NCBI GenBank assembly: GCA_017445425.1
Contig: JAFSUF010000030.1
Location: 1 to 49,802, forward strand
Length of the DNA stretch: 49,802 bases
Origin: Bacteroidales bacterium
GTDB taxonomy: Bacteria > Bacteroidota > Bacteroidia > Bacteroidales > UBA932
Reading direction: 5' to 3'
The position numbers were made by a program, and so were the translations under genes. The notes beneath the pieces were generated by a model that was given only the letters and a program-made list of their open reading frames with translations, was not told where the DNA came from and made no database searches. Positions within the stretch are counted from its first letter, which is position 1, and each line of letters opens with the position of its first letter. Of this stretch, positions 8,957 to 45,123 are shown one piece after another.

Positions 8957-8960
8957 GGCC

Positions 8961-11960: not shown

Positions 11961-11975
11961 CAGGTTGAACAGGTA

Positions 11976-13259
11976 TTAATTGTTATAGTAAAATCCGAGT
12001 TTTTCAAGGCCTGCGGCAATTTCAGGGCAGCTGCCGAAAAGGTTCCAGAGCAGACCGCTACGGTAGTTTTCTATCATCACCGCTTCAGGCCCCTGGTCAA
12101 TAGCCAGATAGTGTTCAAGCACCTGCCTGTCTTCCGGCAGGGTATAGTTTATCGCATCATAGAAGCCGTAGGGGCCAAAGGTGCGGTCGTCGCAGAGCAG
12201 GCGGCGGATGACGGCCATACTCTCTTCAGGAGTATAGACTATTGAAGACACCGCTGCGGTGGGGCTCACCGTGCCGTTCTCCTCAAGCGTGCCGGGATAG
12301 TGGCCGGCATAGCCCAGCAGGACGTCGTCGCTGCTGGTGAATCCCCAGAAATCCTCTCCCAGCTGCTTTTCCGGGTGGTCCATAGCATAAGCGCGGTGAA
12401 TCAGGCACTGGTTGCGGTTGCGCTCAAAGTAGTCGGTATGGCCGTCGCTGAGGCCGCGAGGGTCAAGGCCGAGGAAGGAGTAGTGGGTAAAGAACAGCGG
12501 CCCGCCGTAGGGCATCCCGATGGTGAGCGGGATGCCGTAGTACTCGTTGCCATTGTAGTAGTAGGGGCTGGTCTTGTACGACGCCTCGTAGCACTCTCTG
12601 GTGATGGGGAAAGTGGGCGATGATGCCGCCAGAATGTAGGTAATCAGCGTTTCGTCAAAGCCGCGGATGCGGTGATTCATCTTGAAATCGTAGTTCTTGG
12701 ACCAGTGCCAATAGAGACTGTCGGTTTGCTGAGTATACCAGTTCCACTCTATGCCGTGCCAGAGGGTGTCGCAGCGCGCCTTTAGCGATTCGCTGCGGGT
12801 CCATTGACGGGTGGTGAGGATGCCGGCGGTAAGAAACGCAGTCTCCACCAGATCGCCGCCGTCGTCGTATTTGCTGAACGGATAAGCCTCGCCGCTGTCG
12901 CCGTCGTACCAGTGTGCCCATGCGCCGTGGAAGCGCTCTATGCGCTCCAGCGAAGATATTATTTTCTCCAGGCGCTGCTCTCCCTCTTCGCGCGGATAAT
13001 AACCCCGCTCGGCGCCGGCTATTATGGCCATCATGCCGAATCCGGTGCCGCCGGTGGTCACAATGTTGCCGTGTACATCCTCATTGCGCTCGCGCGCCAT
13101 CCCGGTGTTGGGCTCGGCGAACTCTGTGAAATATTTGATGGTGGCCTGCTCAATGCGGTCCAGGATGGCTTCGTCGCTCTCCTGCTTTGGGGCGCAGGCG
13201 GGTGTCAAAGTGGCTATGGCGGTAAGAGCTATGGCTAACGCCGTCAATGGTCGCTTCAT
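11976..13259 (-). CDS. GH144-family (glycoamylase-like) lipoprotein, predicted beta-1,2-glucan hydrolase
   Basis: 427 residues with a lipoprotein signal ending TPAC (C22) and no Ig-like domain, so it is the compact form of the family. Catalytic-domain signatures run through most of the protein: ATIKYFTEFAEPNTGMARER, VTTGGTGFGMMAII, YDDGGDLVETAF (acidic cluster D132/D136/E139), LYWHWSKNYDFKMNHRIRGFDETL, FTHYSFLGLDPRG and IAIDQGPEAVMIENYRSGLLW. It is a paralogue of the operon's last gene, which carries an extra N-terminal domain. The two may divide endo and exo (sophorose-releasing) activity, because both modes are known in GH144; that split is inference. It lies 3 bases after the GH3 gene and 15 before susC. 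Confidence 0.8.
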   Translation of the reverse strand: MKRPLTALAIALTAIATLTPACAPKQESDEAILDRIEQATIKYFTEFAEPNTGMARERNEDVHGNIVTTGGTGFGMMAIIAGAERGYYPREEGEQRLEKIISSLERIERFHGAWAHWYDGDSGEAYPFSKYDDGGDLVETAFLTAGILTTRQWTRSESLKARCDTLWHGIEWNWYTQQTDSLYWHWSKNYDFKMNHRIRGFDETLITYILAASSPTFPITRECYEASYKTSPYYYNGNEYYGIPLTIGMPYGGPLFFTHYSFLGLDPRGLSDGHTDYFERNRNQCLIHRAYAMDHPEKQLGEDFWGFTSSDDVLLGYAGHYPGTLEENGTVSPTAAVSSIVYTPEESMAVIRRLLCDDRTFGPYGFYDAINYTLPEDRQVLEHYLAIDQGPEAVMIENYRSGLLWNLFGSCPEIAAGLEKLGFYYNN

Positions 13260-13262
13260 AAG

Positions 13263-15506
13263 CTATTCGTTATAGGTAAAAGTTACATATTCTTCACAAT
13301 CCGACGCCGGGCCGATAAACAGCCTGAACTCGCCGACCTCGGGGCCGTAGGTCATATCTTTGCGCCAGAAGGAGAGGAGCTCCGGGGTAATCTCGAACTC
13401 CACTTCGCGGCTCTCGCCGGGGGCAAGGGTGACGCGCTCAAAGCCCTTGAGCTGCTTGACGGGGCGGGTTACGCTACCCACCATGTCGCGGATGTATAGC
13501 TGCACAACCTCTGCACCATCGCGGCTGCCGGTGTTTGTGACAGTGGCCTTGGCTGTAATAGAGCCTTCAGGGCCGAACGAATCGACACTCAAAGATGGCT
13601 TGCCGTAGCTGAAAGTGGTGTAGGAGAGGCCGTAGCCAAAGGGATAGAGCGGCTCGTTCTCGCAGTCGAGGTAGCGGCTCTCATATTTGACGCCGGGGTG
13701 CACGTATGGCCTGCCGGTATTCTTCGCATAATAAAATATGGGGACCTGTCCCAAAGTACGGGGGAATGTCACTGAAAGGCGGCCGCTGGGGCTGGCATCG
13801 CCAAAGAGCAGCCGGGCTACGGCCTCTCCGCCCATGGTTCCGGGGAACCAGGCCTCGAGTATGGCGTCTGCCATACCGCTCTCTTCGCTGAGGTCCAGGG
13901 GACGGCCGTTCATCAGTACAATCGTGACAGGTTTGCCTGTGGCGGCTACGGCCTTGAGCAGTTCAGTCTGGATTTCAGGCAGCCTTATGGATGTGCGGCT
14001 GGCCGCCTCTCCACTCCAGTCGCACGATTCGCCCAGCACCATAATCACCGCCTCTGCGCTGCGGGCAGCAGTTACGGCCGCGCCAAAGCCTGTTTTGACA
14101 TCTCCGTCAAGTTCGCAGCCTCTGACGTATATGATTCTGTCAGAATAATCCCTGATGCCGTCCAGTATGCTTTTGACGCCTTCCACCTGGCCGGCGCCGC
14201 GCCAGCTGGCCAGCAGGTCGTCAGCGGAGTCGGCGAGAGGCCCTATTACTGCAATGCGTGCACCCTTTGCCAGCGGCAGGGCGTTGTCGTTCTTGAGCAG
14301 TACGCAACTCTCCTCTGCCAGGGTGCGGGCTGTGAGCAGATTGGCCCCGGTCTTGGTCTCGGCCGCCTCACGCTCTGCGCTGCAGTACCTGAACGGGTCT
14401 TGGAACAGCCCCAGGCGGGCTTTTACGGTGAGCACGCGGCGCACAGCTTCTTCCAGGGTCTTGCGGCTGACCTTGCCCTCTTCCACGGCCTTCTTCAGGA
14501 AATCTGAGTAGCCGCCGCTCTGCATGTCCATATCGTTGCCGGCGTTCAGAGCCTGTATGCTGGCATCCTCCAAATCGCGGCTGGTGCCGTGGTTAATCAT
14601 CTCCATTATGCCGGTGTAATCGCTCACCACAAAACCGTCGAACCCCCACTCGTGGCGCAGTATCTCTGTAAGCAGGTGGGAGTTGGCCGTGGCCGGGATG
14701 CCGTCGTATTCGTTGAACGATGCCATAACCGTCTGCGCTCCTGCATCCACCGCAGCTTTGTAGGGGGGCAGGTAGAACTCGCGCAGCCAGCGTTCGCTCA
14801 TATCCACGGTGTTATAGTCGCGGCCGGCGTGGGGTGCCCCGTACGCGGCAAAGTGTTTCACGCAAGCGGCGATAGTCAGGGGGTCTTCAAGATCCTCCCC
14901 CTGGTATCCATATACCATTGCGCGGGCCACGGCGCTGCCCAGAAAGGCATCTTCACCGGCGCCCTCGCTGATACGGCCCCATCTGGGCTCCACGCATATG
15001 TCACACATAGGAGAATATGTCCAGTGGAGGCCGGCTGCAGCTGCTTCACGGGCGGCCACCCTGGCGCTCTCTTCAATCAGAGACGGGTCCCAGCTGGCGC
15101 TTATGCCCAGATTTATCGGGAATATGGTGCGGAAGCCGTGGATTACGTCGTAGCCAAATAGCAGGGGAATTCCCAGGCGGGTTTCATTCACCGCAATCTC
15201 CTGCAGCTTCCGGGTGTAATCTGCAGTATAGGCGTTGAAGATATTGCCGCATTTTCCGGCACGGATGTCATCTACATAGCCGTGTCGGATGCTGGGACCG
15301 GTGACATCCCAGTCGGAGGTGTAAAGCACCAGCTGGCCGATCATCTCATCCAGCGTCATTACACGAAGCAGGGAGTCGACTATCGGGTATGTCTTGTTAT
15401 AGTTGACAGCTCTTGCCGGGTCGTCTGGCGGGCATACGTCAGGTTTGTTGCCGCAGCATTCTGTCAGCAGCAGGAGAGTCAGGAGGAACAAAAGGATATT
15501 TCTCAT
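13263..15506 (-). CDS. GH3 family beta-glucosidase lipoprotein
   Basis: 747 residues with a signal peptide (MRNILLFLLTLLLLTECC; C17 or C18 may be lipidated). The GH3 N-terminal barrel spans ~35-395, with GYDVIHGFRTIFP, KHF (217-219), a GRD motif ending at D230 and the nucleophile motif FVVSDYTG (Asp296). The GH3 C-terminal domain spans ~400-620 (ARIAVIGPLADS, IVLMNGRPLDLS, EAWFPGTMGGEAVA). A fibronectin III-like domain closes the protein (~650-740, GAEVVQLYIRDMVGSVTRPVKQLKGFERV). GH3 enzymes release glucose from oligosaccharide non-reducing ends; in GH144 loci a GH3 enzyme acts on beta-1,2-linked glucose. It is first in the operon, 2 bases from a strong inverted repeat in the leader. Confidence 0.9.
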   Translation of the reverse strand: MRNILLFLLTLLLLTECCGNKPDVCPPDDPARAVNYNKTYPIVDSLLRVMTLDEMIGQLVLYTSDWDVTGPSIRHGYVDDIRAGKCGNIFNAYTADYTRKLQEIAVNETRLGIPLLFGYDVIHGFRTIFPINLGISASWDPSLIEESARVAAREAAAAGLHWTYSPMCDICVEPRWGRISEGAGEDAFLGSAVARAMVYGYQGEDLEDPLTIAACVKHFAAYGAPHAGRDYNTVDMSERWLREFYLPPYKAAVDAGAQTVMASFNEYDGIPATANSHLLTEILRHEWGFDGFVVSDYTGIMEMINHGTSRDLEDASIQALNAGNDMDMQSGGYSDFLKKAVEEGKVSRKTLEEAVRRVLTVKARLGLFQDPFRYCSAEREAAETKTGANLLTARTLAEESCVLLKNDNALPLAKGARIAVIGPLADSADDLLASWRGAGQVEGVKSILDGIRDYSDRIIYVRGCELDGDVKTGFGAAVTAARSAEAVIMVLGESCDWSGEAASRTSIRLPEIQTELLKAVAATGKPVTIVLMNGRPLDLSEESGMADAILEAWFPGTMGGEAVARLLFGDASPSGRLSVTFPRTLGQVPIFYYAKNTGRPYVHPGVKYESRYLDCENEPLYPFGYGLSYTTFSYGKPSLSVDSFGPEGSITAKATVTNTGSRDGAEVVQLYIRDMVGSVTRPVKQLKGFERVTLAPGESREVEFEITPELLSFWRKDMTYGPEVGEFRLFIGPASDCEEYVTFTYNE

Positions 15507-19010: not shown

Positions 19011-21404
19011 ATGAAACAAATCAAATTATTTGCATTGCTGGCGGTCATTTCTGCCTTTGCAGCGCTTGCCGGATGCCAGCAGAAGGTAGAGGATCCCTTT
19101 ATCAGGATAGAGGGAGAAAGCACTCTTACCATTGGGCAAGACAAGGCAACAATCACAGTTAAGATTCTCTGTAACAGGGATTGGAAAGTGCGTATGGACA
19201 GCAAGTCCAGCGAATGGATGGTAGTTGAGCCAAGCAGTGGCGCGGCCTCTGACAAAGCCATCGAGGTCACCCTCACGGTGGCGGAGAATACCGGTGTCAA
19301 CCGCACGGCGGCCATTGAGTTCTACACCGGGATAGCCACAACGATGCTTACGGTGATTCAACAGGGGCCCAAGGGGGATTCTGACGGGGTGGAGAGCCTC
19401 TCCGTAGAGGATTTTATAAAAGCGGCCGACAAGAGTACATATTTCCGTTTGTCCGGAACAGTTTCCGGCTTCAATTCACAGTTCTGCAGCTTTAACTTGA
19501 CGGATGCCACAGGCACCATCTATGTCTATTCCGTCACGGAAGATTCCAAGCGCGACTGGAGCGACAAGATCAAGAACGGAGGCACCGTCACTATACAGGG
19601 ACAGTATGAATACTACTCCCAGAAGAGCCAGCACGAGGTTGTGAATGCGATAATTGAGTCGTTCACTCCCGGCGAAGAGGTACAGCCCGGCAATCCTGAA
19701 GGCGACGGCACCATGGCTTCACCCTTCAACGTAGCGGCGGCATGCCTGGCCGTTAAAAACCTTACATGGACCTCCAACTCCGACTACCAGAAGGTCGGCC
19801 CGTACTATGTTAAAGGCAAGGTAAGCGCCATCAGCCAGGATTACACCTACAATATCTCCGACGGACGCAGCTACGGCAATGCCCGCTTCAGCATCTCCGA
19901 CGACGGTTCGGCCTCCTCCGAGCAGTTCACGCTCTATAACCTTTATTATCTCGGCAATGCGAAGTTCGCCGCCGGCCAGACAGATATCTCTGTGGGGGAC
20001 GACGTTGTCATTTATGCCGATCTGATGAATTACCATGGCGACACCCCCGAGAATTCAGGCGGCTACCTCTATTCTCTCAACGGCGATACGGGGAGCGGCT
20101 CCCAGGGAGGCGATACCGTTACCGGCACGGTGGGCGATATCGTTGCCGCGGCCGATAACAGCACCGTGGTTATCCCAGAAGCCACCGTGGCGGCGAAGTC
20201 CACCGTCGGAGTGGTTGTGACTGACGGAGCCTCCAACGTATATATCTATTTCGACGGCAAGGCCGGCGAGACCGTGCCGGATGTGGCAATAGGCGACAAG
20301 GTCAAAGTAGCGGCAACCAAGACAACATACGGCGGTGTGCCGGAACTCAAGACGGCCACCGTTACAAAACTGTCTGCCGGAGAGATCACATACCCTGCAC
20401 CAAAAGACATTAATCCGATTGCAACCACCTATGCATCCGGCGTTACGGAGTTTGTCCAGATGACCGGCACGCTCAAGGTGTCCGGCAATTACTATAATGT
20501 AGAGATGGACGGAGTGGATTCCAGTAGCAAAATGGGGTCCGTCTCCTCCCCCCTGGCCTCGCTTAACGTAGCGTCGTTCGACGGCAAGAGGGTCGTCGTC
20601 ACGGGCTATTTCACTGGCCTGACAGGCTCCAACAAGTATATTAATATAGTGGCCACAGAAGTGGCGCTTGCTGATGCTGATGCGAAATACTGCAATGTCA
20701 ACCCCACGACAATCGGCGCCAAGTCGGATGCCACATCTGCAAGCTTCAATATAAGTTCCAATACAGATTGGACGGTTGCCTGCGACAATGCTGCTTTCAC
20801 GGTATCCCCGGCTTCTGGCAACGGTGACGCCACAGTTACGGTAACGTTCCCTGTAAATGAAGGGGACGAAGCCCGGGTTGCAAACATAACCGTGACTTGT
20901 CCGGGTGCATCGGTAGAGACGGTGGTGGTGCTGACCCAGGGCAGGCCTTCGAGCGGGGAAGAGGTCACTATCGACATAGATTTCACATCTGTTATCGCCG
21001 ATCTGCCCCAGGGCAGCGGCGGTGGCCTTGACAACGGTACGTATACTTTTGAGGGTTATACCTTTGTCTTTCATGCTGCCAACAAATTCTATCAGGCAAA
21101 GAATGGCGATAAGGAAGAGTATTATCTGCTGATTGGTAAGACCAATTCGTTTATCCAACTGCCGGTATTGGAGGGTAAGGCACTCACTAAGGTGGCCTTC
21201 CTGACAGGCGTGAGCGCTTCTGAAAACGTCATAGTTGATGTCAGCAAGACAGACGGCACCCGCCTCAATGTCAATGATGCCAAGCTCAAGAAGGGCACCA
21301 GATACGAGTGGGAGGTCAACGGAGAGGCCGGGGTGGCTTACCAGTTGTTGATAGTTAATAACTATAATGCCCAGTTCCAGAATCTTACCTTGATTTATGA
21401 ATAG
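19011..21404 (+). CDS. Large BACON / OB-fold multidomain surface lipoprotein
   Basis: 797 residues with lipoprotein signal ending LAGC (C22). A BACON-type domain spans ~30-118 (CNRDWKVRMDSKSSEWMVVEPSSG). An OB-fold-like domain follows at ~124-215 (VEDFIKAADKSTYFRLSGTVSG...LTDATGTIYVYSV). A second OB-like module covers ~240-350 (YYVKGKVSAIS...RFSISDDG) and a third ~370-550. A second BACON domain lies at ~560-650 (SSNTDWTVACDNAAFTVSPASG). A C-terminal jelly-roll-like module is at ~660-797. No catalytic motif was seen. OB folds often bind single-stranded nucleic acid, and the next gene, overlapped by 8 bases, is a nuclease, so a surface capture role for nucleic acid is inferred. First gene of a five-gene operon. 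Confidence 0.8.
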   Translation: MKQIKLFALLAVISAFAALAGCQQKVEDPFIRIEGESTLTIGQDKATITVKILCNRDWKVRMDSKSSEWMVVEPSSGAASDKAIEVTLTVAENTGVNRTAAIEFYTGIATTMLTVIQQGPKGDSDGVESLSVEDFIKAADKSTYFRLSGTVSGFNSQFCSFNLTDATGTIYVYSVTEDSKRDWSDKIKNGGTVTIQGQYEYYSQKSQHEVVNAIIESFTPGEEVQPGNPEGDGTMASPFNVAAACLAVKNLTWTSNSDYQKVGPYYVKGKVSAISQDYTYNISDGRSYGNARFSISDDGSASSEQFTLYNLYYLGNAKFAAGQTDISVGDDVVIYADLMNYHGDTPENSGGYLYSLNGDTGSGSQGGDTVTGTVGDIVAAADNSTVVIPEATVAAKSTVGVVVTDGASNVYIYFDGKAGETVPDVAIGDKVKVAATKTTYGGVPELKTATVTKLSAGEITYPAPKDINPIATTYASGVTEFVQMTGTLKVSGNYYNVEMDGVDSSSKMGSVSSPLASLNVASFDGKRVVVTGYFTGLTGSNKYINIVATEVALADADAKYCNVNPTTIGAKSDATSASFNISSNTDWTVACDNAAFTVSPASGNGDATVTVTFPVNEGDEARVANITVTCPGASVETVVVLTQGRPSSGEEVTIDIDFTSVIADLPQGSGGGLDNGTYTFEGYTFVFHAANKFYQAKNGDKEEYYLLIGKTNSFIQLPVLEGKALTKVAFLTGVSASENVIVDVSKTDGTRLNVNDAKLKKGTRYEWEVNGEAGVAYQLLIVNNYNAQFQNLTLIYE

Positions 21405-22599
21405 AATAAGATTATTGCTCCTGGCCGTTGCGGCTTTGGCCGTGGCTTGTACCAAGCCCGACGGGGAGACTTTTTCCGTAAGTGTCAAGAATACCGATGT
21501 GGACGGTAGCCGCGGTACGCAGTTCGTCCAGGTGACTGCCGCCGAGGGGGAAGCATGGACCCTGGCCGTAACCGACGAGAACGGAATCAGGGCAGACTGG
21601 GCGGAGGTCGATCCCGCCGGTGGCATCGGTCCCAAAAGGTCCGCTACCGTCACATGGGACAAGAATATGACGGGGGCGGCGCGTACCATGGTGATTCACG
21701 GTACGACCGACAGGCATAGCGACCAGGTACGCATAGTGCAGGCGGCATATAAGTCCGGTACAGAAACCCCGGAGCTGCCATCCCAGATCAAAGCCGATCC
21801 TGTCCCCGGCTGGCTCGAGCTCCCCGCCACGGATGATGCCTCGCTCTACTTTATCACTCATGAGAGCAACAACGCCGCAGGGCGCAATTATTCCTTCTAT
21901 TGGGATACCCGGGCGCTGGTGGCGAACTGGGTGGCATATCCCCTGAACAAGAACCTGATAGGATCGGGCTCCCGTACCAACGAATGGGGTCTGGATCCCA
22001 AGCTGCCGCGAGATGTGCAGCCGGTGCTCTATTCCGGATACAGAAGTTCCACGGCCAGCGGTAACATAGACGGTGGTACCGTCTATTACGACCGCGGCCA
22101 TCAGTTGCCTTCTGCCGACCGTCTCAACCCCAGCGAGAATGTGCAGACCTTCTACGGTACCAATATCACCCCCCAGGTCAATGAACTCAACTCCTATATC
22201 TGGGCCTCCTTAGAGGGGCGCGTACGCGACTGGTCCAAGTCGTTTGACACGCTGTATGTGGTTTCCGGTTGCGTAACCAAGGGCAGCAACGCCTATGCGT
22301 ACGATAACGATGGGAAGAAGGTAACTGTTCCAGTAGGTTATTACAAGGCGCTTCTGGGTTACGACCGCAATCGCGCCAAAGGCATCACGTCGCAGACTTT
22401 GGGATATACTGCCGTTGGATTCTATCTGGAGCAGCGTCCATACAGCGACGAGAATTACCTCGATTGCGCCATGACCATAGACGAACTGGAGAAGAAAGTG
22501 GGCGTGGATCTATTTGTAAATCTGCCCAGTGAGATTGGCAATGCCCTCTATGACAAGGTGGAATCCACCCGTGACTCATACTGGTGGACCGGAAGATAG
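21397..22599 (+). CDS. DNA/RNA non-specific endonuclease (NUC1 family) lipoprotein
   Basis: 400 residues with lipoprotein signal MNRIRLLLLAVAALAVAC (C18). Residues ~25-120 form a BACON-like beta-sandwich (GTQFVQVTAAEGEAWTLAV...ADWAEVDPAGG). The catalytic ββα-Me domain then carries YYDRGHQLPSADR (catalytic His235), followed by TNITPQVNELNSYIWASLEGRVRDW with the Mg-binding Asn and LYVVSGCV. This is the Serratia nuclease/NucA fold, which cuts single- and double-stranded DNA and RNA without sequence preference. Lipid anchoring suggests it acts on the cell surface or in the periplasm. Its ATG lies in an 8-base overlap, ATGAATAG, with the stop of the preceding gene. Confidence 0.93.
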   Translation: MNRIRLLLLAVAALAVACTKPDGETFSVSVKNTDVDGSRGTQFVQVTAAEGEAWTLAVTDENGIRADWAEVDPAGGIGPKRSATVTWDKNMTGAARTMVIHGTTDRHSDQVRIVQAAYKSGTETPELPSQIKADPVPGWLELPATDDASLYFITHESNNAAGRNYSFYWDTRALVANWVAYPLNKNLIGSGSRTNEWGLDPKLPRDVQPVLYSGYRSSTASGNIDGGTVYYDRGHQLPSADRLNPSENVQTFYGTNITPQVNELNSYIWASLEGRVRDWSKSFDTLYVVSGCVTKGSNAYAYDNDGKKVTVPVGYYKALLGYDRNRAKGITSQTLGYTAVGFYLEQRPYSDENYLDCAMTIDELEKKVGVDLFVNLPSEIGNALYDKVESTRDSYWWTGR

Positions 22600-22607
22600 A
22601 CAGGCCT

Positions 22608-23666
22608 ATGAAAAGATTTGTTACAATCGCGTTTATCCTGCTGCTGGCCATCGGTGCCAACGCGCAGAAGCGAACCTATGTGATAGGCTTCTACAATCTG
22701 GAGAACCTGTTTGACATCTACGACGACCCAGCGAAGAACGATCAGGAGTTCCTCCCCGACGGGGCCAACAACTGGACTCAGGCCAAATATGAGAAGAAGC
22801 TCGCCAATATGGCAAAGGTGATCCGTTCCATGAAAGAAGAGAACGGCCGCTATCACACAATCCTCGGGGTGAGTGAGATAGAGAACCGCATGGTCCTCGA
22901 AGACCTGGTAGCGCAACCCGCCATCGCCGAGGCCAACTATCAGATAGTGCATTATGACGGTCCCGACCGCCGCGGCGTGGATGTGGCACTGCTGTACAAG
23001 CCGGAGCAGTTTACCTTTCTTGACTCCGAGTCGATACCTTTCACCTTTGAAGGGAGCGACATTGACTTTTCAGACGTCGACACCGGCTACTTCCGCACCC
23101 GCGACATACTTATGGTGCATGGCACCATAGCCGGCGAACACTTCGCCTTCTATGTGATGCACCTCCCCAGCCGCATCGGCGGCAAGGGGGGCAACCTTCG
23201 CAACAGGGGAGCTGAGATAGCATACAACCACTCCCTGCGCATGATGGAGAAGTATCCGGGCATCAAGATAGTGGCTATGGGCGACATGAACGACGATCCG
23301 TTTGACGAGAGTATCGCCAGTTATTATCATGGTCGCGAAAAACTGGAGGCAGTGGGCACGGAAGATTATTTCAATCCGTTCTACCAGATGGTAAAGGACG
23401 GCCTGGGTTCACTCTGCTACCAGGGCCAGTGGAGCATATACGACCAGATTATCGTCAACCACACCCTTGCTTATGCTCCGGCCGGCGGACTCAAGCTGGT
23501 TAGAATTAACAAGGGTTACTATGGGCGTGTGTTCAAGAAGCATTTCATGGTGACCAAGAGCGGGCAATACAAGGATTATCCCTTGCGCACCTTCTCCAAT
23601 GGCGCTTTTATCAACGGTTTCAGCGACCACTTTCCCACATATATCGTAATTAGCAAAGATGAATAA
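22608..23666 (+). CDS. Secreted endonuclease/exonuclease/phosphatase family protein
   Basis: 352 residues from the ATG at 22608; signal MKRFVTIAFILLLAIGANAQ ends in a normal NAQ cleavage site, so it is periplasmic or secreted. The EEP (DNase I-like) fold is seen as IGFYNLENLFD, GVSEIENRMVLEDL (metal-binding Glu), RRGVDVALLYKP, MHLPSRIGG, GDMNDDPFDES and a closing GFSDHFP (catalytic Asp-His). It hydrolyses phosphodiesters, plausibly trimming oligonucleotides made by the upstream NUC1 nuclease; a sugar- or lipid-phosphatase activity is also known in the family. Paralogue at 46296-47273 lacks a signal peptide. Gap to the upstream gene is 8 bases; the next gene overlaps by 8. Confidence 0.9.
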   Translation: MKRFVTIAFILLLAIGANAQKRTYVIGFYNLENLFDIYDDPAKNDQEFLPDGANNWTQAKYEKKLANMAKVIRSMKEENGRYHTILGVSEIENRMVLEDLVAQPAIAEANYQIVHYDGPDRRGVDVALLYKPEQFTFLDSESIPFTFEGSDIDFSDVDTGYFRTRDILMVHGTIAGEHFAFYVMHLPSRIGGKGGNLRNRGAEIAYNHSLRMMEKYPGIKIVAMGDMNDDPFDESIASYYHGREKLEAVGTEDYFNPFYQMVKDGLGSLCYQGQWSIYDQIIVNHTLAYAPAGGLKLVRINKGYYGRVFKKHFMVTKSGQYKDYPLRTFSNGAFINGFSDHFPTYIVISKDE

Positions 23667-26616
23667 TATGATAAGGAGAATCGCCATTTCTGCAGCACTG
23701 CTGCTGGCTTCGCTCGCCGTGTGGGGGCAATTGCCCACCGGAGGGGTAAAGGGGGCCGTGGTCAGCCGTGCCGGGCGCGAACCCATAGAAGGGGCGTCTG
23801 TCTCCCTTATGAAGGGGGCTGAGAGAATAGCGTCCTGCACCACGGGGCGCGACGGAACGTTTTTGGTGGAGGAGCTCGAAAACGGCGTTTATTCCATGAT
23901 GATAGAGGCCGACGGCTTTGTCCGCTCCAATGTGAATGTAACAGTAGATGATGGCTTTATCAAGGATATGATGACCCTCTCCCTGCTGCCGGAGCAGGTG
24001 GTGGAAGAGGTAGATGATGCCAGCTACACCGAATTTGACATGGATGATTCCGGGTTCACAGACAACCCCACCATCCTGTACAACAGTAACGATGTTTTCA
24101 CTAACGTCGCGGGTTACGGCTTCAGCAACGTCCGTTTCAAAAACCGCGGTTATGAGAGTCAGACCCAGGATGTTTACCTGGCGGGTGTGCGGATGAACGA
24201 TGCCGTTACCGGATACTCCCCGTTCAGCCTCTGGAGCGGCCTGAACGAGGCTACCCGAAGCAAGGAATCCACCATCGGCATGGAGTCGGCGCAATATGGC
24301 ATCGGACATTTCAACGGGATGACCAATATCCTGGGCACACCCTCATCCGTCCGCCCCGGCTGGCGCTTCAGCTTTCTGACAAACAGCGCCCTCTACCGTG
24401 TCCGCCTGATGGCCAACTATGCCTCCGGGATGCTGGATAACGGCTTTGCCTATGCCGTGAACATCTCCCTTAGGGCCGGCGGCAACGACTGGATCAAGGG
24501 TGTCCATTACAACAACCTCTCTTACTATCTTGGCATAGAGAAGAAGTTCGGTGATGACAGCCGCCTGGCTCTCTTCACTTTTGCCAACACCGGCCACCGC
24601 GGGGTGCAGACAGCCTCGACACAGGAGGTTTACGACATGATGGGCGACAATATGTACAACTCCAACTGGGGCTATCAGGACGGAGTGTTGCGTAACGCCC
24701 GCGTCCGAAAGACGTTCGAGCCGGTCACCGTGCTCCGATATTCTGCATCGCCCTCCGACAAACTTGACCTGTCTGCTACGCTGCTGTACCGCTGCGGCTA
24801 CAACGGCTACACCGCCCTCGACTGGTACGATGCTCCCGACCCGCGCCCCGACTACTACCGCAACCTGCCCAGCTATTTCTATATGGACGATGATGATTAC
24901 AACCGTCTGAACGAAGAGAAGGCTGAGTGGGCATATGAGGCGTGGACCACCCATACCAAGGATTTTGCCAATTACCAGCACCTCAACTGGGACAGGATGT
25001 ACCGTGTCAACTACAACTCTGCCGACGGCCGCAGCAAATATGTGCAGGAGCAGAGGCATGTGGACCAGCGCGACCTCAACCTTGCAGTTTCTGCACAATG
25101 GTATGCGACGGAGAATTTCACCTTGAACTCTGGACTTGAAGGCAAGATAAACCGCACGGAACACTACAAGAAGATTGCCGATTTGCTTGGCGGCAGCTAT
25201 TTCCTCAATATAGACCAGTTCGCAGAGCGCGACTTTGCCAGCAACGAGGCGCTGACCCAGAACGACCTCGATTATTTCCTTTCCAACGGCCATGCGGAGA
25301 AGATAGTCAAGGGGGGCAAATACGGGTATGATTATTACGCGCATATCCGCAAGGCCCGCCTTTGGGCTAATGGAATATACACTCTGGGTGATTTTACCGC
25401 ATCTTTAGGCGCGACTGTCGGGTATGAAACATTCTGGAGGGAAGGCTTGGTGCGCAAAGGGCTCTTCGCCGGACTCGACGATGCCGGCAATGAGATTACC
25501 TATCAGGGCAAGACGCTCACTACATATGACTCCCAGGGGCGTCCCATCACCTCCAAGGGTCTCTCAGAGAAACCGGGCTTCCTGACATATTCCGGCAAGC
25601 TGGCTCTGGCATATATGCTGCATGGCGGGCACCGGTTCAGCCTCAACGCGGGCTATTTCAACGATGCCCCCACATTCAGCCAGTCGTTTGTCTCTCCCCG
25701 TACCAGGAACAGCCTGATACACAACCTCACCACCCAGAAGACCATGTCGGCTGACATCAACTACCAGTGGAGCGGAAACGGCTACAGCGTGCGTCTGACC
25801 GGTTTCTGGACCCAGATCAAGGACCAGACCGATCTGATGAGCGTCTATGATGACTCCCAGCAGTCGTTCGTCAACTTTGCCCTGACCGGGATAGATCAGC
25901 GGCACATGGGTGTGGAAATCGGCGCCAAGGTGCCGCTCCCCTTGCAGGGGCTCTCCCTCTCCGGCGTGCTCAGCCTGGGCGAATACATATACAACTCCGT
26001 GCCGCAGATGACCATGACCGTGGACAACAGCTCCGAGATAATATACGAGGACATGGATTTGAACTACTGGATGTCCAGCCCAATCTACCGGCGCGTAAAC
26101 TATAACGGCAGTAGCGTGATAGAGGTTGACGTAAACGGCGACGCCGTAATTGACAGATGGCAGAAGCACCACATCCCTTCGACTCCGTCTGTGGCCGGCG
26201 CCCTCGTGCTCAACTATCGCACCCGTTCCTACTGGTTCTTTGAGCTTAACGGCCAGTATTTTGCCAAGTCGTATCTGGACATGAATCCGCTATACCGCAC
26301 CATGGTGGCCTGCGGAGGCGCCGACGGTATCGCCACCCCGGAAGAGATAGAGTATATGGCCACCCAGGAGGAATTCAGCCCGGCGTTCCTGCTCAACGGC
26401 AGCGTGGGCAAATCGTGGTATATCAAGCGCAAATATAACTTTGGCTTCTCGCTGGATGTGCGCAATATGCTCAACAATCGTGATGTACGTACCGGAGGCT
26501 ACGAACAGAGCCGCCTGATATCCAGTGCAGGCAAGGACCGCTACTACAAATACAACAGCAAGTATTTCTATATGAGCGGAATGAGTTATATGTTGAACCT
26601 CTATTTCAGATTCTGA
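23659..26616 (+). CDS. TonB-dependent outer-membrane receptor of the nuclease operon
   Basis: 985 residues; signal peptide to ~residue 24 (LASLAVWGQ). The N-terminal carboxypeptidase-regulatory-like domain (~28-110) reads GGVKGAVVSRAGREPIEGASVSL...TTGRDGTFLVEEL. The plug and barrel follow, with FKNRGYESQTQDVYLAGVRMND, and the barrel closes YMLNLYFRF with a terminal Phe. It is not a SusC: there is no LKDASAAAIYG motif and no SusD gene. It would import a substrate across the outer membrane; flanking nuclease genes point to oligonucleotides, nucleosides or released phosphate. The start ATG overlaps the upstream stop in ATGAATAA; a second ATG at 23668 is an alternative. Confidence 0.9.
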   Translation: MNNMIRRIAISAALLLASLAVWGQLPTGGVKGAVVSRAGREPIEGASVSLMKGAERIASCTTGRDGTFLVEELENGVYSMMIEADGFVRSNVNVTVDDGFIKDMMTLSLLPEQVVEEVDDASYTEFDMDDSGFTDNPTILYNSNDVFTNVAGYGFSNVRFKNRGYESQTQDVYLAGVRMNDAVTGYSPFSLWSGLNEATRSKESTIGMESAQYGIGHFNGMTNILGTPSSVRPGWRFSFLTNSALYRVRLMANYASGMLDNGFAYAVNISLRAGGNDWIKGVHYNNLSYYLGIEKKFGDDSRLALFTFANTGHRGVQTASTQEVYDMMGDNMYNSNWGYQDGVLRNARVRKTFEPVTVLRYSASPSDKLDLSATLLYRCGYNGYTALDWYDAPDPRPDYYRNLPSYFYMDDDDYNRLNEEKAEWAYEAWTTHTKDFANYQHLNWDRMYRVNYNSADGRSKYVQEQRHVDQRDLNLAVSAQWYATENFTLNSGLEGKINRTEHYKKIADLLGGSYFLNIDQFAERDFASNEALTQNDLDYFLSNGHAEKIVKGGKYGYDYYAHIRKARLWANGIYTLGDFTASLGATVGYETFWREGLVRKGLFAGLDDAGNEITYQGKTLTTYDSQGRPITSKGLSEKPGFLTYSGKLALAYMLHGGHRFSLNAGYFNDAPTFSQSFVSPRTRNSLIHNLTTQKTMSADINYQWSGNGYSVRLTGFWTQIKDQTDLMSVYDDSQQSFVNFALTGIDQRHMGVEIGAKVPLPLQGLSLSGVLSLGEYIYNSVPQMTMTVDNSSEIIYEDMDLNYWMSSPIYRRVNYNGSSVIEVDVNGDAVIDRWQKHHIPSTPSVAGALVLNYRTRSYWFFELNGQYFAKSYLDMNPLYRTMVACGGADGIATPEEIEYMATQEEFSPAFLLNGSVGKSWYIKRKYNFGFSLDVRNMLNNRDVRTGGYEQSRLISSAGKDRYYKYNSKYFYMSGMSYMLNLYFRF

Positions 26617-26619
26617 TCC

Positions 26620-27714
26620 ATGAAAAAGATATTGTCAATAATCGCTCTTTCTGCCCTGATGGTCTCCTGCACCTCTCTCGTGGAGGAGTTCCAGCCTGTT
26701 TTTACGGCAAATTACCCGCAGCCGGCGGCGGATAAGAGCGTTGAGTTGGAGCCCAACATCACCATCGCCGCCCTCTGCGGCATGTACAAGACGGGTTCTC
26801 CCTGGAACATAGACCAGGATCTGATAATCGCCGGCAAGGTGACTACCACAGACAAGCCTGGCAACTTTTATAAATCGCTGTATATCCAGGACGAAACCGG
26901 CGGCATTGAGATCAAAATGGGGAAGAACGGCCTTTACAACTATTATCCAGAGGGGACAACGCTCTACGTACGCTGTTTTGGCCTGACGCTGGGCATGTAT
27001 GGTTACAAAAGTGGTAATTATGGCGGCCAGGGGATGGTACAGCTGGGGTTCGAGGACCCTTCCGGTTCTTACGAAACCTCATATCTGGAGTCATCGTACC
27101 TGATTGATTCGCATATTTTCGCGGGGCCGGCGGGCGATCCGGCGGAGCCTGCGGTAATAAGCGAGAGCGAACTCCCGTCGTCTTTCGACACCCAGAAGAG
27201 CAATCCTTACATAGGCCGTCTGGTGACCCTCAAGGGGCTTAAATATGCCAATCAGATATTCTGCCTTATTTACATCAACTCCAATAAGGACAAGACCATG
27301 TCGGCCAACCGCATCTTCCTTTCGGATGCGACGTGGGGCGTCACCACATGGGCAATGTCAGAGAGCAAGTTCAAGGAGTATCTGGATGCCGGCCTCTGGG
27401 ACGATGTCAAAATAGGCAACTCAGGGAACTATGCCTACGGCACGGTGGGTCATCCGGAAGACCCCGGTTTTGCCACAAGCAGGGCAGATATCCGTGCCAA
27501 CGCCTCTGCGTATTCCGTAAGCCAGTATTTCAAGATGGGTTCGCGCGAGATACAGCTTCGCACCAGCGGCTACTCCAAGTTTGGCGACTACGAAATCCCC
27601 AAGTCCGTGCTGGACGGCACGGCGACGGTGGATATGACCGGCATACTGACCATGTATCAGGGCTCAATCCAGTTCATCGTCAATTCTATTGACGACATCG
27701 TGGTACACGAATAG
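26620..27714 (+). CDS. DUF5689-like OB-fold surface lipoprotein
   Basis: 364 residues with lipoprotein signal MKKILSIIALSALMVSC (C17). The N-terminal half (~45-130) matches the DUF5689-type module seen beside Bacteroidota TBDTs: IDQDLIIAGKVTTTDKPGNFYKSLYIQDETGGIEIKMG, an OB-like barrel. The C-terminal half has IGRLVTLKGLKYA, RADIRANASAY, QLRTSGYSKFGD and ends VDMTGILTMYQGSIQFIVNSIDDI, resembling a second OB-like barrel. It occupies the SusD-like position 3 bases after the receptor gene and may act as its substrate-binding partner. Function is inferred from position; no ligand is known to me. Confidence 0.75.
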   Translation: MKKILSIIALSALMVSCTSLVEEFQPVFTANYPQPAADKSVELEPNITIAALCGMYKTGSPWNIDQDLIIAGKVTTTDKPGNFYKSLYIQDETGGIEIKMGKNGLYNYYPEGTTLYVRCFGLTLGMYGYKSGNYGGQGMVQLGFEDPSGSYETSYLESSYLIDSHIFAGPAGDPAEPAVISESELPSSFDTQKSNPYIGRLVTLKGLKYANQIFCLIYINSNKDKTMSANRIFLSDATWGVTTWAMSESKFKEYLDAGLWDDVKIGNSGNYAYGTVGHPEDPGFATSRADIRANASAYSVSQYFKMGSREIQLRTSGYSKFGDYEIPKSVLDGTATVDMTGILTMYQGSIQFIVNSIDDIVVHE

Positions 27715-31484: not shown

Positions 31485-33500
31485 CTACAGCTCTATACTG
31501 ATGCTTGACAGATATACTGCGTAGTTGCTCTCGTTAACCACTTTGAAGAACTTGCAGCCTTCGGGAACTGCAAATGTCTCGGACTTGCCGTCTTCGCTCA
31601 AAGTGCCTGTGAGGGCATCTCCGGCGGGGTTCTCCGCGTTGCCGGCGTAAACCTTCAGGTTGCCCTGGTAGTAGGTTTTGTCGGGATGGCAGTTTACGGT
31701 GACAGACTTGATATCGGACGGCATCGCCGTCTTGTTGGCGATGAATGAATTCTTCTTGCCCTGCATCTGGATGCCGGTGCCGTAGTTGGCAACCTTGAGG
31801 AAACTGTACTCGTAATCACCTTCGGTGAAAGTGGCTTCTGCCTCGGGGTATGCAGCGGGGAGCTGCGCATCGGTAATCACAACCGCATTGCCGGGATCTT
31901 CTTCAGTGACCAGCTTTTCTATGAACCAGGCCGACTTGACCTGAGGCGTCCCGTTGTGGGAAGAGCGGTAGCCGCGTATCTTTATCACGTCACCCTCCTT
32001 GAGACCCAATGAAGCGAAGCTCTTGTCGTTCTTCGCTCCGTAACCCAGCTCGGTGGCGGTAAGGCCATAGACGTAAACCGTACCGGTCTCGTCGGTCAAA
32101 TCAAAGTTGCCGTAGGTGTTGTTGATGTTGCCGCCCATGGTGCCGGTGAGCACGTAAACCTGTGCGTCGGACTCCTCTGCAGCAAGGAACTCAGCCACCG
32201 TTGCAGCGATGGGGCCGCTGGCAAGCTTCTCTATGAACCATGCAGATTTGACCTGCGGTGTCCCGTTGTGTGAAGATCGGTAGCCGCGAAGTTTGATGAC
32301 GTCGCCCGCCCTGAGTCCCAGAGAGGCGAAGCTCCTGTCGTTGGAGGCTCCATAACCAAGTTCAGTGGCAGTCAGGCCGTAAACGTACACGGTGCCAGTC
32401 GCATCGGTAAGGTTAAAGTTGCCGTAGGTGGTGTTTATGTTACCTTCTATGGTGCCCACAAGTTCGTAAACACCGGAATCAGACTCCTCAGCTGCGAGGA
32501 AATCAGCCACGGTAACGGTCAGTATGTTACCCTCCTGGTTTACAGTAAACTCGGCAGTGGAGGTCTCGCCCTTGGCAGAGGTGGTGGAGAGGGTCATCAC
32601 GGCAGAACGCCCCATACCGGCATTCTCTGCGGCGGTGAATGTGAGTGTCACGTTCTCGCCGTCTTTGACCGCGCCCTTGAAGGTGATCCAGCCGGCTTCA
32701 TAGTCAGCCTTGACATCCTCACCTTTGACAACGGCCTTCACCTCGAAATCGCCACCCTCCTTGGGCAGTGTTACATTGTCGGACTCCAGGTCAAAGAGAG
32801 ACTTTTTGTGGGAAACATAAACTGCGTTGACAATCTCCCAAACTTGATCCTTCTCGTAGAACTGGAGGGTATTGGCCTGTACGGTGAGCACGTCACCCAG
32901 GGCAAGTTCCTTGTCGGCCCAGCATTTCTGCGCCTCCAGCTCTTCGTTGAGCAAGCCATAGACGTAGATTGTACCTGTTTCGTCGGTGAGGTCAAAGTTG
33001 CCGTATTTGGTGTTGGCCACGCGGGTGATGGTGCCGGTGATGATGTACGCGTCGGTATTCGCCCCAAGGGCCAGATAATCTGCAATGGAGATGGTGTTGT
33101 CACCGCTTTGGCCTTCGCCGGCAGCCTGCGTCACCGTGAGTTCCGCAAGCGGAGTGCTCTCTAAGGCGACGGAAGTGCTGGAAACATTACCTACTGCGCT
33201 GTAGAATTTTACGGCATCTGTGCGGGCGCCGCCGTCGTTGGGTGCGACAGTGACCTTTACTGTCTGGTTGCCCTCACCATTTGCAGGGGAGACGCTTATC
33301 CAGTCGGGCGTATCGGCCACCCAGGCGCCGTCGGCGGTTATGGTCGCTTCAAAGGACTGGCCGTCTGTGGCCACCTGCTGGGTGCCGGGAGCAACGGAGA
33401 TGTTGCGGGCCATTTCGCCTACGGGGGTTTCTGGTGTACAAGCGGCAAGGCCAGAGAGGCAAACGGCCGCTGCTATAAGAATTCTAAAATACTTTTTCAT
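31485..33500 (-). CDS. BACON / triple OB-fold repeat surface lipoprotein
   Basis: 671 residues with lipoprotein signal ending LAAC (C21). A BACON domain (~32-130) is followed by an OB-like module (~136-233, TGTITRVANTKYGNFDLTDETGTIYVYGL). A second BACON domain (~240-325) leads to two tandem OB-like repeats (~329-424 and ~433-528) with the same core YGNF[DN]LTD and VYVYGLTATELGYGA. A C-terminal jelly-roll-like module (~535-671) closes with VVNESNYAVYLSSISIEL. The last two OB repeats are ~85% identical over about 96 residues. No catalytic motif. It lies 19 bases after a large TBDT gene and shares modules with the first lipoprotein of the nuclease operon, so it may be a substrate-binding partner. 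Confidence 0.8.
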   Translation of the reverse strand: MKKYFRILIAAAVCLSGLAACTPETPVGEMARNISVAPGTQQVATDGQSFEATITADGAWVADTPDWISVSPANGEGNQTVKVTVAPNDGGARTDAVKFYSAVGNVSSTSVALESTPLAELTVTQAAGEGQSGDNTISIADYLALGANTDAYIITGTITRVANTKYGNFDLTDETGTIYVYGLLNEELEAQKCWADKELALGDVLTVQANTLQFYEKDQVWEIVNAVYVSHKKSLFDLESDNVTLPKEGGDFEVKAVVKGEDVKADYEAGWITFKGAVKDGENVTLTFTAAENAGMGRSAVMTLSTTSAKGETSTAEFTVNQEGNILTVTVADFLAAEESDSGVYELVGTIEGNINTTYGNFNLTDATGTVYVYGLTATELGYGASNDRSFASLGLRAGDVIKLRGYRSSHNGTPQVKSAWFIEKLASGPIAATVAEFLAAEESDAQVYVLTGTMGGNINNTYGNFDLTDETGTVYVYGLTATELGYGAKNDKSFASLGLKEGDVIKIRGYRSSHNGTPQVKSAWFIEKLVTEEDPGNAVVITDAQLPAAYPEAEATFTEGDYEYSFLKVANYGTGIQMQGKKNSFIANKTAMPSDIKSVTVNCHPDKTYYQGNLKVYAGNAENPAGDALTGTLSEDGKSETFAVPEGCKFFKVVNESNYAVYLSSISIEL
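31913..32520 (-). repeat. Tandem ~312-bp intragenic duplication encoding two OB-fold modules
   Basis: Two adjacent copies (roughly 31913-32205 and 32225-32517) encode near-identical OB-like modules. Both end in the same stretch from YRSSHNG through WFIEKL. The DNA differs more than the protein because many changes are at third codon positions, so the copies are not brand new. Confidence 0.85.
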
Positions 33501-33519
33501 AATCTGTGTCCTCCCTTAA

Positions 33520-36500
33520 TTAGAATGTGATTCTTGCACCAAGCTGGCAGCGCCATCTGGAGTAGAAGTCGCTGAGGTTGATGGTGCGGGGATCGTATTG
33601 ATAAGTAGGAGTAGCGTCACCCTTGGAATCAGTGGAAACGCCGGTCACCTTGAGTACCTGGACGGTATAGGAGCTGTTGTAGTATAGGCCCCAGTTGCGG
33701 TTGAAGAGGTTGCCTATGTTCATGAAGTCGGCAAAGAGCTGTACTTTGCGGCCGTGTGTCCTGTCGTAGATGAAATCCTCGCCGACGTGCAGGTCAAAGT
33801 GATGCTCGAAGGGGGCCATGCCGGCATTACGGCTGGACCACTGTCCGCGGTGGCTGCGAAGGTACTGGTCATTGCGGATGTAGTTCTCGAACTTGGCTGC
33901 ATCGCCCGCCTTTGCCCAGGACATCTGCGGAACTTCGCTTTCGGTGGGGATATATAGCAGGGAATTGCCCTTGTATCCGTCGCCGTTGAAGTCGGCAGAC
34001 TCGTTATATGTGTAGCTGTAGCGCTGGCCGCTCTCACCCATATAAGTCAGGGAGATGTTGGTGGCCAGGCGGCCTGCCAGATAAGGCTGGGAGTTCCAGG
34101 AAACGACGCCCATAATCTTGTGGGGCTTGTCAAATCCCGAATAGCTCATCTCGGGAGCGTTTGTATCCACCGAGTAGTTGTACTTCCAGTTGGAATATGC
34201 TACGGAAGAAGTGCCGTCGTTCACGCTGTAGGAGTGTCCCCAGGTGTAGGATGCCATCAGGTTCAGGCCAAAGTCAAAGGATTTCTCCAGTTTGCCGCTC
34301 AGGGAATAGGTGTAGCCCTTGTTGGTATTGCCCAGCGCAACAATAGTGGAATATGCGCTGCTCATCGCATTGTAATAAGGCGCGGTGGGGGTATCGACGC
34401 TGGAGTTTACGGGGTAAACCTTGTTCTCGCTGGTGATGGCAAGGTTCTGGAAGAAGATGTTGTTCAGGGTCTTGGAGAACAGGCCGTCGAAGGTGAAGGT
34501 CCAGCCGCCGTCCCAGGTCTTGTCAAAACCGAGGTTCACGCGGAATACCTGTGGATATTTGAACTTGCGGTTCATGGTGTTGATGGTCATGCCGCTGTTC
34601 TGCGCCTCAACCAGGCCGTTCTTGATGAGAACCTCGTAGGGGTTGCTGGTGAAAGGACTCACGCCCTTGGCCTCTGCTGCTGCGAGCACTTCTTCCCAGG
34701 GATTCACACCGTTTTTGTTCGTCTTGTTCTGGATGTAGACGCTCTTTGCCTCCATGCCGTTGTTGTTGTATGCGTTGGAGAGCCATACGAAAGGCACGCG
34801 GCCGGTGAACAGGCCGGCACCACCGCGGAGAACGGCGGTGTGCCCTTCATCCATGTACCAGCGGAAGCCGACACGGGGAGAGAGCAGGATGGTGGGAGCC
34901 GGAATCTCGCCCACACGGGCATTATAGAGTTCCGGGAAAGTATCCTTGAAGGTCTCAGCATAGGCATTGAAGCCGGGGTTCTCGGTGGGTCTGTTGAGAA
35001 GCACGGGCATATCTGCGCGCAGACCGTAGGTAAGGGTGAAGTCGCGGTTGGGCTTCCACTCATCCTGAGCGTAGAGGCCGAACTGTGCGGCCCATGTGGT
35101 AGCGCCCCATACAGGGCTGCCGCCGGTGAGCTCCGGATCTGCATAATTATAGTAGAACTCGTTCACGTTACCTGCGAAGTAGTCAGCCACGCTATTGTAC
35201 TTATACTCGCCGAATGCATACTGGCGGTAGATGTTGTAGAAGCGGAACAGCTCGTTGTGGGTACCTATGGTGATATTGTGCTTGCCGGCAAGGATGGATA
35301 CGTTGTCGGTAAGGGTATAGGTGTCGGAGTGCATGGCATTCTGGCCGGAAGAGTACTCCGTACCGAGATTAATGGTATAGGTATCGTTGGGGATATAGAT
35401 GTTGGCACCCTGATATGGGATCTCGCGGCGGTCGCGGACAAACACGGCCGTTGCGCGGGCCTCGTTGGTAACCATCTCGCCCAGGCGGCTGTTGAGCTCA
35501 AGCACGAACGAGTTGGTGTAATCAACCATATTGTAGGAAGAGTTGTTGAAGTAATAGGTGTAGTTGCCGCTGCCGTACTTGTCGGAGTTGCCGTGGGCGA
35601 ACTGATATCGGAACATCAGCTTGTTGTCGGTGTTGATGTTCCAGTCCAAGCGTAGCAAGGCGCTGATGTTGAGGTCCTTCTTCTGGTGCTGTCCGTAGCT
35701 CTCTGAATAGCCTTCGCCGGGAGAATAAGTGTCCTGGTAGTGTTTGAGGAAGGCATCGGCCATGGCGGTATTGAAGTGGGAAGCCACGAATTCCGACCGG
35801 GTGAGGTCGGTGGTGACCCCGTTAACCGTCACGGGGAATACCACATCCCTGAAATCCTCTGCACCGTCTATGCCGATGGGCGAGGTGTTGGCCAGGGCGT
35901 TGGTATAGGTATCAAGCGCCGGGCTATATACGCTGGGGTAGCTCTTCTTATAAAACTCGCCGCTGGCAAAGAAGAAGAGTTTGTTCTTGATGATGGGGCC
36001 GCCGAGGGTAAAGCCGGCGCGGGCCACGAGCTCGTCGTCGTATTTGGTGCGGGTCTTGCCCTCTGCTATGGGGCCTGCGGTAGTACCGATGAAGTCCTGG
36101 TTCATGTAATAACCGTAGGCAGAGCCTTTCAGCGAATTGGTACCGGACTTGGTGATGACGTTCATCGCGCCGCCGGTGAATCCGCTCTGGCGAACATCAA
36201 AGGGAGCTACTACAACCTGGATCTCTTCCACTGCGTCCAAGGAGATGGGGTCGGCTCCCGCCTGTCCGCCGTTGGTTCCGGAACTTGCCAGGCCAAAGGC
36301 GTCGTTGCTTATGGCTCCGTCAATCTGGAAGCTGTTGTAGCGGTTGTTGCTGCCGGCAAAAGAGATTCCTCCGTTCTTGCTGACGGTAGCCTGCGGGGTG
36401 TACTTTACAATGTCGTAGATGCTGCGGTCCACGTTAGGCATCGTCTCCACTGCGGTGTGGCCAAAATGGTCGCCGGCACCGGTCTTAGTGGCGTTGAAAG

Positions 36501-38220: not shown

Positions 38221-38273
38221 GATTTTAGCATTTTTTAACGGTGGTTGCAAGCAATGACAAATCTGTCCACCCC
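38221..38273 (-). promoter_or_regulatory. SAM-II/SAM-V-like riboswitch candidate controlling metK
   Basis: In minus-strand RNA sense, P1 pairs GGUGG (38271-38267) with CCACC (38244-38240). The 22-base loop contains GAUUU (38263-38259) and ends UUGCAA directly before the P1 3' strand. P1 is followed by GUUAAAAAAUGCUAAAAUC, whose final AAAUC can pair with the loop GAUUU to make a pseudoknot. GAUUU, UUGCAA before P1 and a purine-rich tail with GCUAAA match what I recall of the SAM-II core. The tail abuts the metK AUG, so ligand binding could hide the ribosome entry site. Confidence 0.65.
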
Positions 38274-38288
38274 GTATGTTATCGGCCG

Positions 38289-45097: not shown

Positions 45098-45105
45098 TAT
45101 CTTTG
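45098..45105 (+). promoter_or_regulatory. -7 element TATCTTTG for the comF-like gene
   Basis: Perfect TAnnTTTG overlapping the TTG at 45103. That makes TTG an unlikely start and supports the ATG at 45124. Confidence 0.55.
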
Positions 45106-45123
45106 AATTCAGAAGCGAATGAT

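Follow-up and report, generated by a model that had tools for sequence, protein, structure and literature searches.

A five-gene Bacteroidales operon as a candidate outer-membrane DNA uptake system related to a natural transformation gene pair of Riemerella anatipestifer

A five-gene operon in the window (the whole 49,802-nucleotide stretch of Bacteroidales contig JAFSUF010000030.1 that was analyzed) is, taken as a whole, best explained as an outer-membrane DNA uptake machine, a reading to which we assign a probability of roughly 0.6. The core of the operon consists of a receptor and a DUF5689 lipoprotein. Clean deletion of either of the two corresponding genes of Riemerella anatipestifer abolishes transformation, and we therefore favor, for this core, the import of DNA across the outer membrane.

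Reading of the open reading frames in the window placed the five genes in close succession (Table 1), with overlaps or gaps of no more than 8 bases, namely, 8-base overlaps between gene 1 and the NUC1 gene and between the EEP and receptor genes, an 8-base gap between NUC1 and EEP, and a 3-base gap between the receptor and DUF5689 genes. The five-gene run was confirmed as real, domains were assigned by Pfam scan, and the parts list given in an original prediction for this DNA proved correct for all five genes. Signal peptide and lipobox readings are based on a loose pattern. Promoter and terminator scans returned signal near shuffled levels, and a search of viral contigs for relatives gave 90 pattern matches, 0 of which were confirmed.

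Table 1. Genes of the operon (positions 19011-27714 of the window)
Feature	Position	Strand	Basis
BACON/OB-fold lipoprotein (gene 1), 797 aa	19011..21404	+	BACON Pfam, lipobox-like start
NUC1 (Endonuclease_NS) lipoprotein, Serratia-nuclease type	21397..22599	+	PF01223
EEP-fold (Exo_endo_phos_3) secreted or periplasmic enzyme	22608..23666	+	PF19580
SusD-less TonB-type outer-membrane receptor, 985 aa, RA0C_RS04915 orthologue	23659..26616	+	profile + tree
DUF5689 lipoprotein, RA0C_RS04920 homologue	26620..27714	+	PF18942, 136 bits

The receptor carries an N-terminal CarboxypepD_reg domain (42.3 bits; cut-off, 32.3). Its barrel (19.2 bits; cut-off, 27) and plug (14.1 bits; cut-off, 23.9) both score below threshold, so it is from sub-threshold matches that we infer a TonB-dependent receptor; an alignment of 16 family members at E 0.001 recovered the plug in 3 and the barrel in 1. 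Comparison of the receptor profile with solved structures gave matches confined to the carboxypeptidase-like N-terminal domain. The DUF5689 protein is a putative capture lipoprotein of this receptor: 8 of 14 DUF5689 proteins show a weak OB-family match, comparison with solved structures returned nothing convincing, and a single-sequence structure model (mean pLDDT, 33.1) was discarded. A putative surface capture role likewise falls to the product of gene 1, in which BACON scores 51.8 bits (cut-off, 25) and BACON_2 is also matched. Its OB fold (PF01336) reaches 22.8 bits, under the cut-off of 27, and exceeds that cut-off in orthologues (34.3 bits in L031 and 46.2 bits in L028). In three other scanned genera of the family, the first gene combines BACON with one to three DUF5689 stretches. 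Solved structures gave a single weak match to this protein, in its C-terminal BACON part, and a single-sequence model of the OB region (mean pLDDT, 30.5) was discarded. A second OB/BACON lipoprotein lies elsewhere in the window (31485-33500), away from any nuclease, so the OB/BACON part counts for little toward a nucleic-acid role.

For the NUC1 protein, the PF01223 domain scores 129.5 bits (cut-off, 23), the protein aligns to the Serratia nuclease structure 1g8t (3e-16), and the active-site residues R233-G234-H235 and N265 are invariant in 14/14 homologues, with the exact motif DRGH in 11 of them; domain and RGH/N active site together place it in PF01223. It shares both features with NUC1 endonucleases such as Serratia nuclease, but unlike that enzyme it is a lipoprotein with a weak BACON-like N terminus and sits in a receptor operon. 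Pneumococcal EndA is another NUC1 endonuclease. The EEP enzyme matches PF19580 at 313.7 bits, and its SDH motif is present in 54/54 collected homologues; the reading frame opens at 22584 (GTG), the likelier start being the ATG at 22608, which is followed by a signal peptide. No match to it was found in NCBIfam at E 0.1 or among solved structures. The ExeM/NucH extracellular DNases (NF033681) also have an EEP domain, and the Riemerella EEP homologue scores 21.8 bits on NF033681, far under the family cut-off of 300. Elsewhere in the window, positions 46296-47273 give a weak match to the same family (30 bits).

The experimental anchor for our reading comes from R. anatipestifer, in which a screen of 3000 mutants identified the adjacent genes RA0C_RS04915 and RA0C_RS04920 as essential for natural transformation, the former described as an outer membrane protein with a carboxypeptidase-like domain and the latter as a DUF5689 protein (PMC8459023). 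In clean deletions of either gene, transformation fell from 5.4e-5 to an undetectable level (detection limit, about 4e-10). In the portion of that report available, pilus homologues are stated not to have been detected in R. anatipestifer, the EEP neighbor is not named among the hits, homologues of the receptor are reported solely from Flavobacteriaceae, and Flavobacterium johnsoniae is described as possessing homologues yet being untransformable in a published test (PMC8459023). Within the open-licence literature, no later paper on this gene pair was recognized, and the word DUF5689 itself was found in PMC8459023 alone, as was the tag RA0C_RS04915 among the 20 papers listed of 61.

We used R. 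anatipestifer strain CCUG25054, located via a published primer, as comparison genome. It contains a single full-length match to the window's receptor (721 bits with the A1 profile), and its sole DUF5689 match lies directly after this orthologue. Identity between the window and Riemerella proteins is 26% over 1020 aa for the receptor (2e-86, blastp), 26.5% over 249 aa for the DUF5689 protein (4e-15), and 34% over 317 aa for the EEP enzyme (1e-56); with the pair at about 26% identity, function is transferred here from a distant relative. The Riemerella gene order (recA, four genes, comEC, two genes, EEP in divergent orientation, receptor, DUF5689) fits the tags RS04870, RS04895, RS04915, and RS04920 counted in fives, tag RS04915 being assigned by gene order; all four are listed as essential transformation genes (PMC8459023). 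Two features of the Riemerella pair recur in the window, i.e., (i) a receptor orthologous to RS04915 and (ii) a DUF5689 lipoprotein directly downstream, and in both places the two genes are adjacent on the same strand with an EEP homologue beside them. The Riemerella arrangement differs in that its EEP gene has a divergent orientation, the stretch read contains neither a NUC1 nor a BACON/OB gene, its lipoprotein has a choice-of-anchor J domain, and comEC and recA lie within 10 genes of the pair, whereas comEC of the window's genome is on a different contig from the operon. The Riemerella-type transformation set also counts the HHH protein RS02645 and the DUF1343 protein RS09020.

To what extent the operon is conserved was addressed by searching for the receptor in 60 relatives. 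Full-length orthologues were found in 7/25 congeneric genomes. All five genes occur in order at seven of the eight congeneric loci, the window included, and only the eighth, whose start coincides with a contig edge, falls short; with so many loci complete, chance does not account for the five-gene order. The same layout recurs in four other genera of the family. A survey of 296 genomes of the phylum turned up 45, not counting the window's own, with a receptor scoring at least 390 bits, every one from the same class or order, and four genomes outside the class were matched by paralogue-like receptors (231-245 bits). We fetched loci from 38 of the 45 high-scoring genomes and from two of the four outside the class. 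Linkage was counted at 59 orthologous receptors of at least 500 bits (the window, L028-L047, and L090-L127). At 56 of these 59, one of the next two genes downstream is a DUF5689 gene, which in 53 cases is the immediate neighbor. EEP is directly upstream in 46 (32 divergent and 14 co-directional), with 3 more loci cut by contig ends, and NUC1 is found within three genes upstream in 14. At 17 lower-scoring, paralogous receptors, the corresponding counts were 0/17 for DUF5689, 0/17 for NUC1, and 0/17 for EEP in the directly upstream position, although a single EEP gene occurs nearby. Fisher tests of linkage in orthologues versus lower-scoring receptors gave p values of 3e-14 and 1e-9, which overstate independence, as the rows are related. 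The exceptions comprise six loci of one genus plus L098 and L127, which are missing EEP; L046, which has no recognized DUF5689; and L040 and L100, which have neither. Conservation of the gene order, for which the original prediction had asked, is thus borne out both among congeneric loci and in the wider DUF5689 and EEP linkage. With these five families set aside, the largest clusters of other neighbors (within six genes) reach at most 10/59 loci; among them are a loosely defined oxidoreductase-like group at 10 loci and, downstream, a lipoprotein-like group at 6.

A receptor tree of 73 rows, built by a quick method from 58 orthologues, the Riemerella receptor, and 14 paralogues (L047 was excluded as too short), separated the orthologues, Riemerella included, from the 14 paralogues with a support of 100. 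The 14 NUC1 loci, drawn from two families, form one receptor clade (support, 100), which is consistent with the NUC1 version having arisen once. Divergent EEP genes occur on the remaining branches of the tree, and given this distribution together with the single NUC1 clade, the nuclease and the additional lipoprotein seem to have joined a module of EEP, receptor, and DUF5689 that already existed. Within this bacterial class, the pairing of receptor and DUF5689, in most cases accompanied by EEP, appears ancient.

The window's genome encodes a ComEC core domain (383 aa, without DUF4131), DprA, and multi-HHH proteins, all of which also occur where the operon is absent. The window itself has a ComF-like gene (45103-45873), which scores below its family cut-off. 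comEC is not beside the pair in the window's genome (comEC is on contig C32 and the operon on C94), and it is distant from the receptor in G340 as well, so linkage of comEC to the pair is not general. ComEC was matched in 56/60 relatives, with or without the operon, and in 28/28 further receptor-bearing genomes, Riemerella included. Of the 4/60 relatives in which it was unmatched, two bear the module, one as the full five-gene operon (G010; 89% complete) and one as EEP-receptor-DUF5689 (G037; 99% complete). In these two, the known route into the cytoplasm would be closed to DNA. Two candidate observations were rejected: a 613-aa gene at L090 considered as a ComEC beside the receptor (f29 loci) looks like Rho, and that genome's ComEC lies elsewhere; and a short ComEC is no sign that gene uptake has given way to feeding, since the two f26 NUC1 genomes have frames of 708 and 731 aa.

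The principal alternative, which is the reading that the original prediction had given, is a feeding operon in which NUC1 and EEP digest DNA or RNA outside the cell, oligonucleotides or nucleotides enter through the receptor as a source of phosphorus, nitrogen, or nucleosides, and long DNA stays outside. Such an operon would suit a NUC1 enzyme of the nonspecific Serratia type that is tightly operonic, as well as the description of Bacteroidota as extracellular DNA degraders (PMC8289736); moreover, if the ComEC loss is real, the module of the nearly complete G037 works without ComEC, which favors feeding there. Against this alternative, the orthologous pair is essential for transformation, so that DNA of recombination length must enter, and 45/59 loci have no NUC1 within three genes upstream (3 of these being cut by contig ends). 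Nor does a nucleotide-catabolic group stand out among the 14 largest neighbor clusters listed; a loose 5'-nucleotidase motif fits 1 of the 643 genes within six genes of the 59 orthologues, and that gene, which adjoins EEP in L046, speaks for feeding. In our assessment, the Riemerella genetics favor polymer import over a plain digestion operon, and feeding as the sole function appears unlikely, while the NUC1 enzyme and the ComEC-less genome favor feeding in some lineages. What the original prediction had named as the likely substrate, nucleic acid, gains support from the essential role of the orthologous pair in natural transformation.

An indirect effect must also be weighed, in which some other scarce solute is the receptor's cargo, or the pair stabilizes the envelope, and the nucleases serve separately, e.g., in clearing biofilm DNA. 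Transformation of Riemerella depends on iron, phosphate, and peptone (PMC8383284). Furthermore, the Riemerella DUF5689 lipoprotein belongs to the M949_1556 family (590.8; cut-off, 475), for which a paper's title reports antigenicity and pathogenicity phenotypes of the mutant, so the transformation defect may arise indirectly, through the envelope. The nuclease-free OB/BACON lipoprotein in the window also fits this alternative. Both clean deletions, on the other hand, cause a drop of >100,000-fold to below detection (PMC8459023), in a pair that lies near comEC and recA, and the EEP linkage extends across the class, which together make an indirect effect quite improbable. Finally, a polysaccharide utilisation locus of the SusCD type, which the operon resembles in joining a TonB-type receptor, lipoproteins, and secreted enzymes and on which the original prediction had modeled it, is rejected, because SusD is absent from the five genes and four scanned flanking genes (encoding a flavodiiron-type protein, an M48 peptidase, and two BACON proteins), no regulator was found among those four, and the enzymes are NUC1 and EEP rather than glycan enzymes. 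Elsewhere in the window (7481-15506), a genuine SusCD pair does occur, together with a GH3 enzyme.

Under the DNA uptake reading, the surface DUF5689 and BACON/OB lipoproteins would hold DNA, NUC1 and EEP would cut or trim it before or during passage, and the TonB-driven receptor would pass it across the outer membrane. We infer this passage, the surface exposure, the enzyme activities, and the fate of the DNA, whether eaten or recombined. Transformation is lowered in tonBA and tonBB mutants of Riemerella, of which tonBA has no iron defect; the tonBB effect was ascribed to iron by the authors (PMC8383284). Besides the Riemerella orthology and the gene linkage, the tonBA result, the DUF5689 stretches in the first gene of other genera, and the ComEC core, DprA, multi-HHH, and ComF-like genes of the window's genome speak for the DNA uptake reading. 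Counting against it are the low identity to the Riemerella pair, the two module-bearing genomes with no ComEC match, the untransformable F. johnsoniae, the iron-linked tonBB effect, the M949_1556 phenotypes, the EEP neighbor's absence from the named hits, the lack of DUF4131 in the window's ComEC, and the sub-threshold barrel and plug. Since this lineage appears to have gained NUC1 and an extra capture lipoprotein, the DNA brought in is probably used as food and may also be recombined. A broader proposal, which we advance tentatively and at somewhat less than even odds, is that an ancestral, pilus-free, TonB-driven receptor with DUF5689 imports polymeric DNA, and that its nuclease-armed form in the window's lineage makes of that DNA both food and genetic material.

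If true, these proteins would form a TonB-dependent transporter class whose substrate is a nucleic acid polymer, and would bear on how DNA crosses the outer membrane in bacteria such as Riemerella, in which pilus homologues were not detected. Beyond the published Flavobacteriaceae, receptor orthologues with DUF5689, and usually EEP, are traced here to the window's order and to other families of the class, with the nuclease-armed form in two families. The window's bacterial group is common in gut and marine communities, and the module is a candidate, open to experimental test, for how that group takes up genes or feeds on DNA.

The association of OB and BACON domains proved not to be specific to nucleic acid operons, because a further lipoprotein of this kind, paired with an outer-membrane barrel protein, lies elsewhere in the window with no adjoining nuclease. 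The window also holds a true SusCD-type locus and a riboswitch (see table).

Features of the window and of related loci
Feature	Position	Strand	Remarks
SusCD-type locus	7481-15506	-	SusD, receptor and GH3 enzyme; upstream
BACON/OB lipoprotein, barrel protein beside it	31485-36876		PF01336 over cut-off
SAM-II riboswitch	38215-38276	-	start of S-adenosylmethionine synthetase gene
ComF/GntX-like phosphoribosyltransferase gene	45103-45873		79.6 bits, below cut-off
Second EEP gene	46296-47273		no obvious signal peptide
Host ComEC	L152:2187-3338		only 383 aa, without DUF4131
Split receptor orthologue	G281 C19:401297-404102		two overlapping frames
Riemerella DUF5689 protein	L140:15387-16796		NCBIfam M949_1556 lipoprotein family

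The second EEP gene of the window adjoins the ComF/GntX-like gene. At two relatives' receptor loci (L035 and L037), an EEP gene that again lacks an obvious signal peptide follows the DUF5689 gene as the sixth gene.

Short ComEC frames (about 350-480 aa) recur in the host's genus and in several genera of its family; in other families, the frames are mostly 500-770 aa. No ComEC match was found in G037 (99% complete; locus L045) or G010, two genomes that both carry the receptor-DUF5689 module. The split of the receptor orthologue may mean that the gene is broken, or it may stem from an error in sequencing.

The literature links the M949_1556 lipoprotein family, to which the Riemerella DUF5689 protein belongs, to antigenicity and pathogenicity. 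A single gene may lie behind both the transformation and the virulence literatures.
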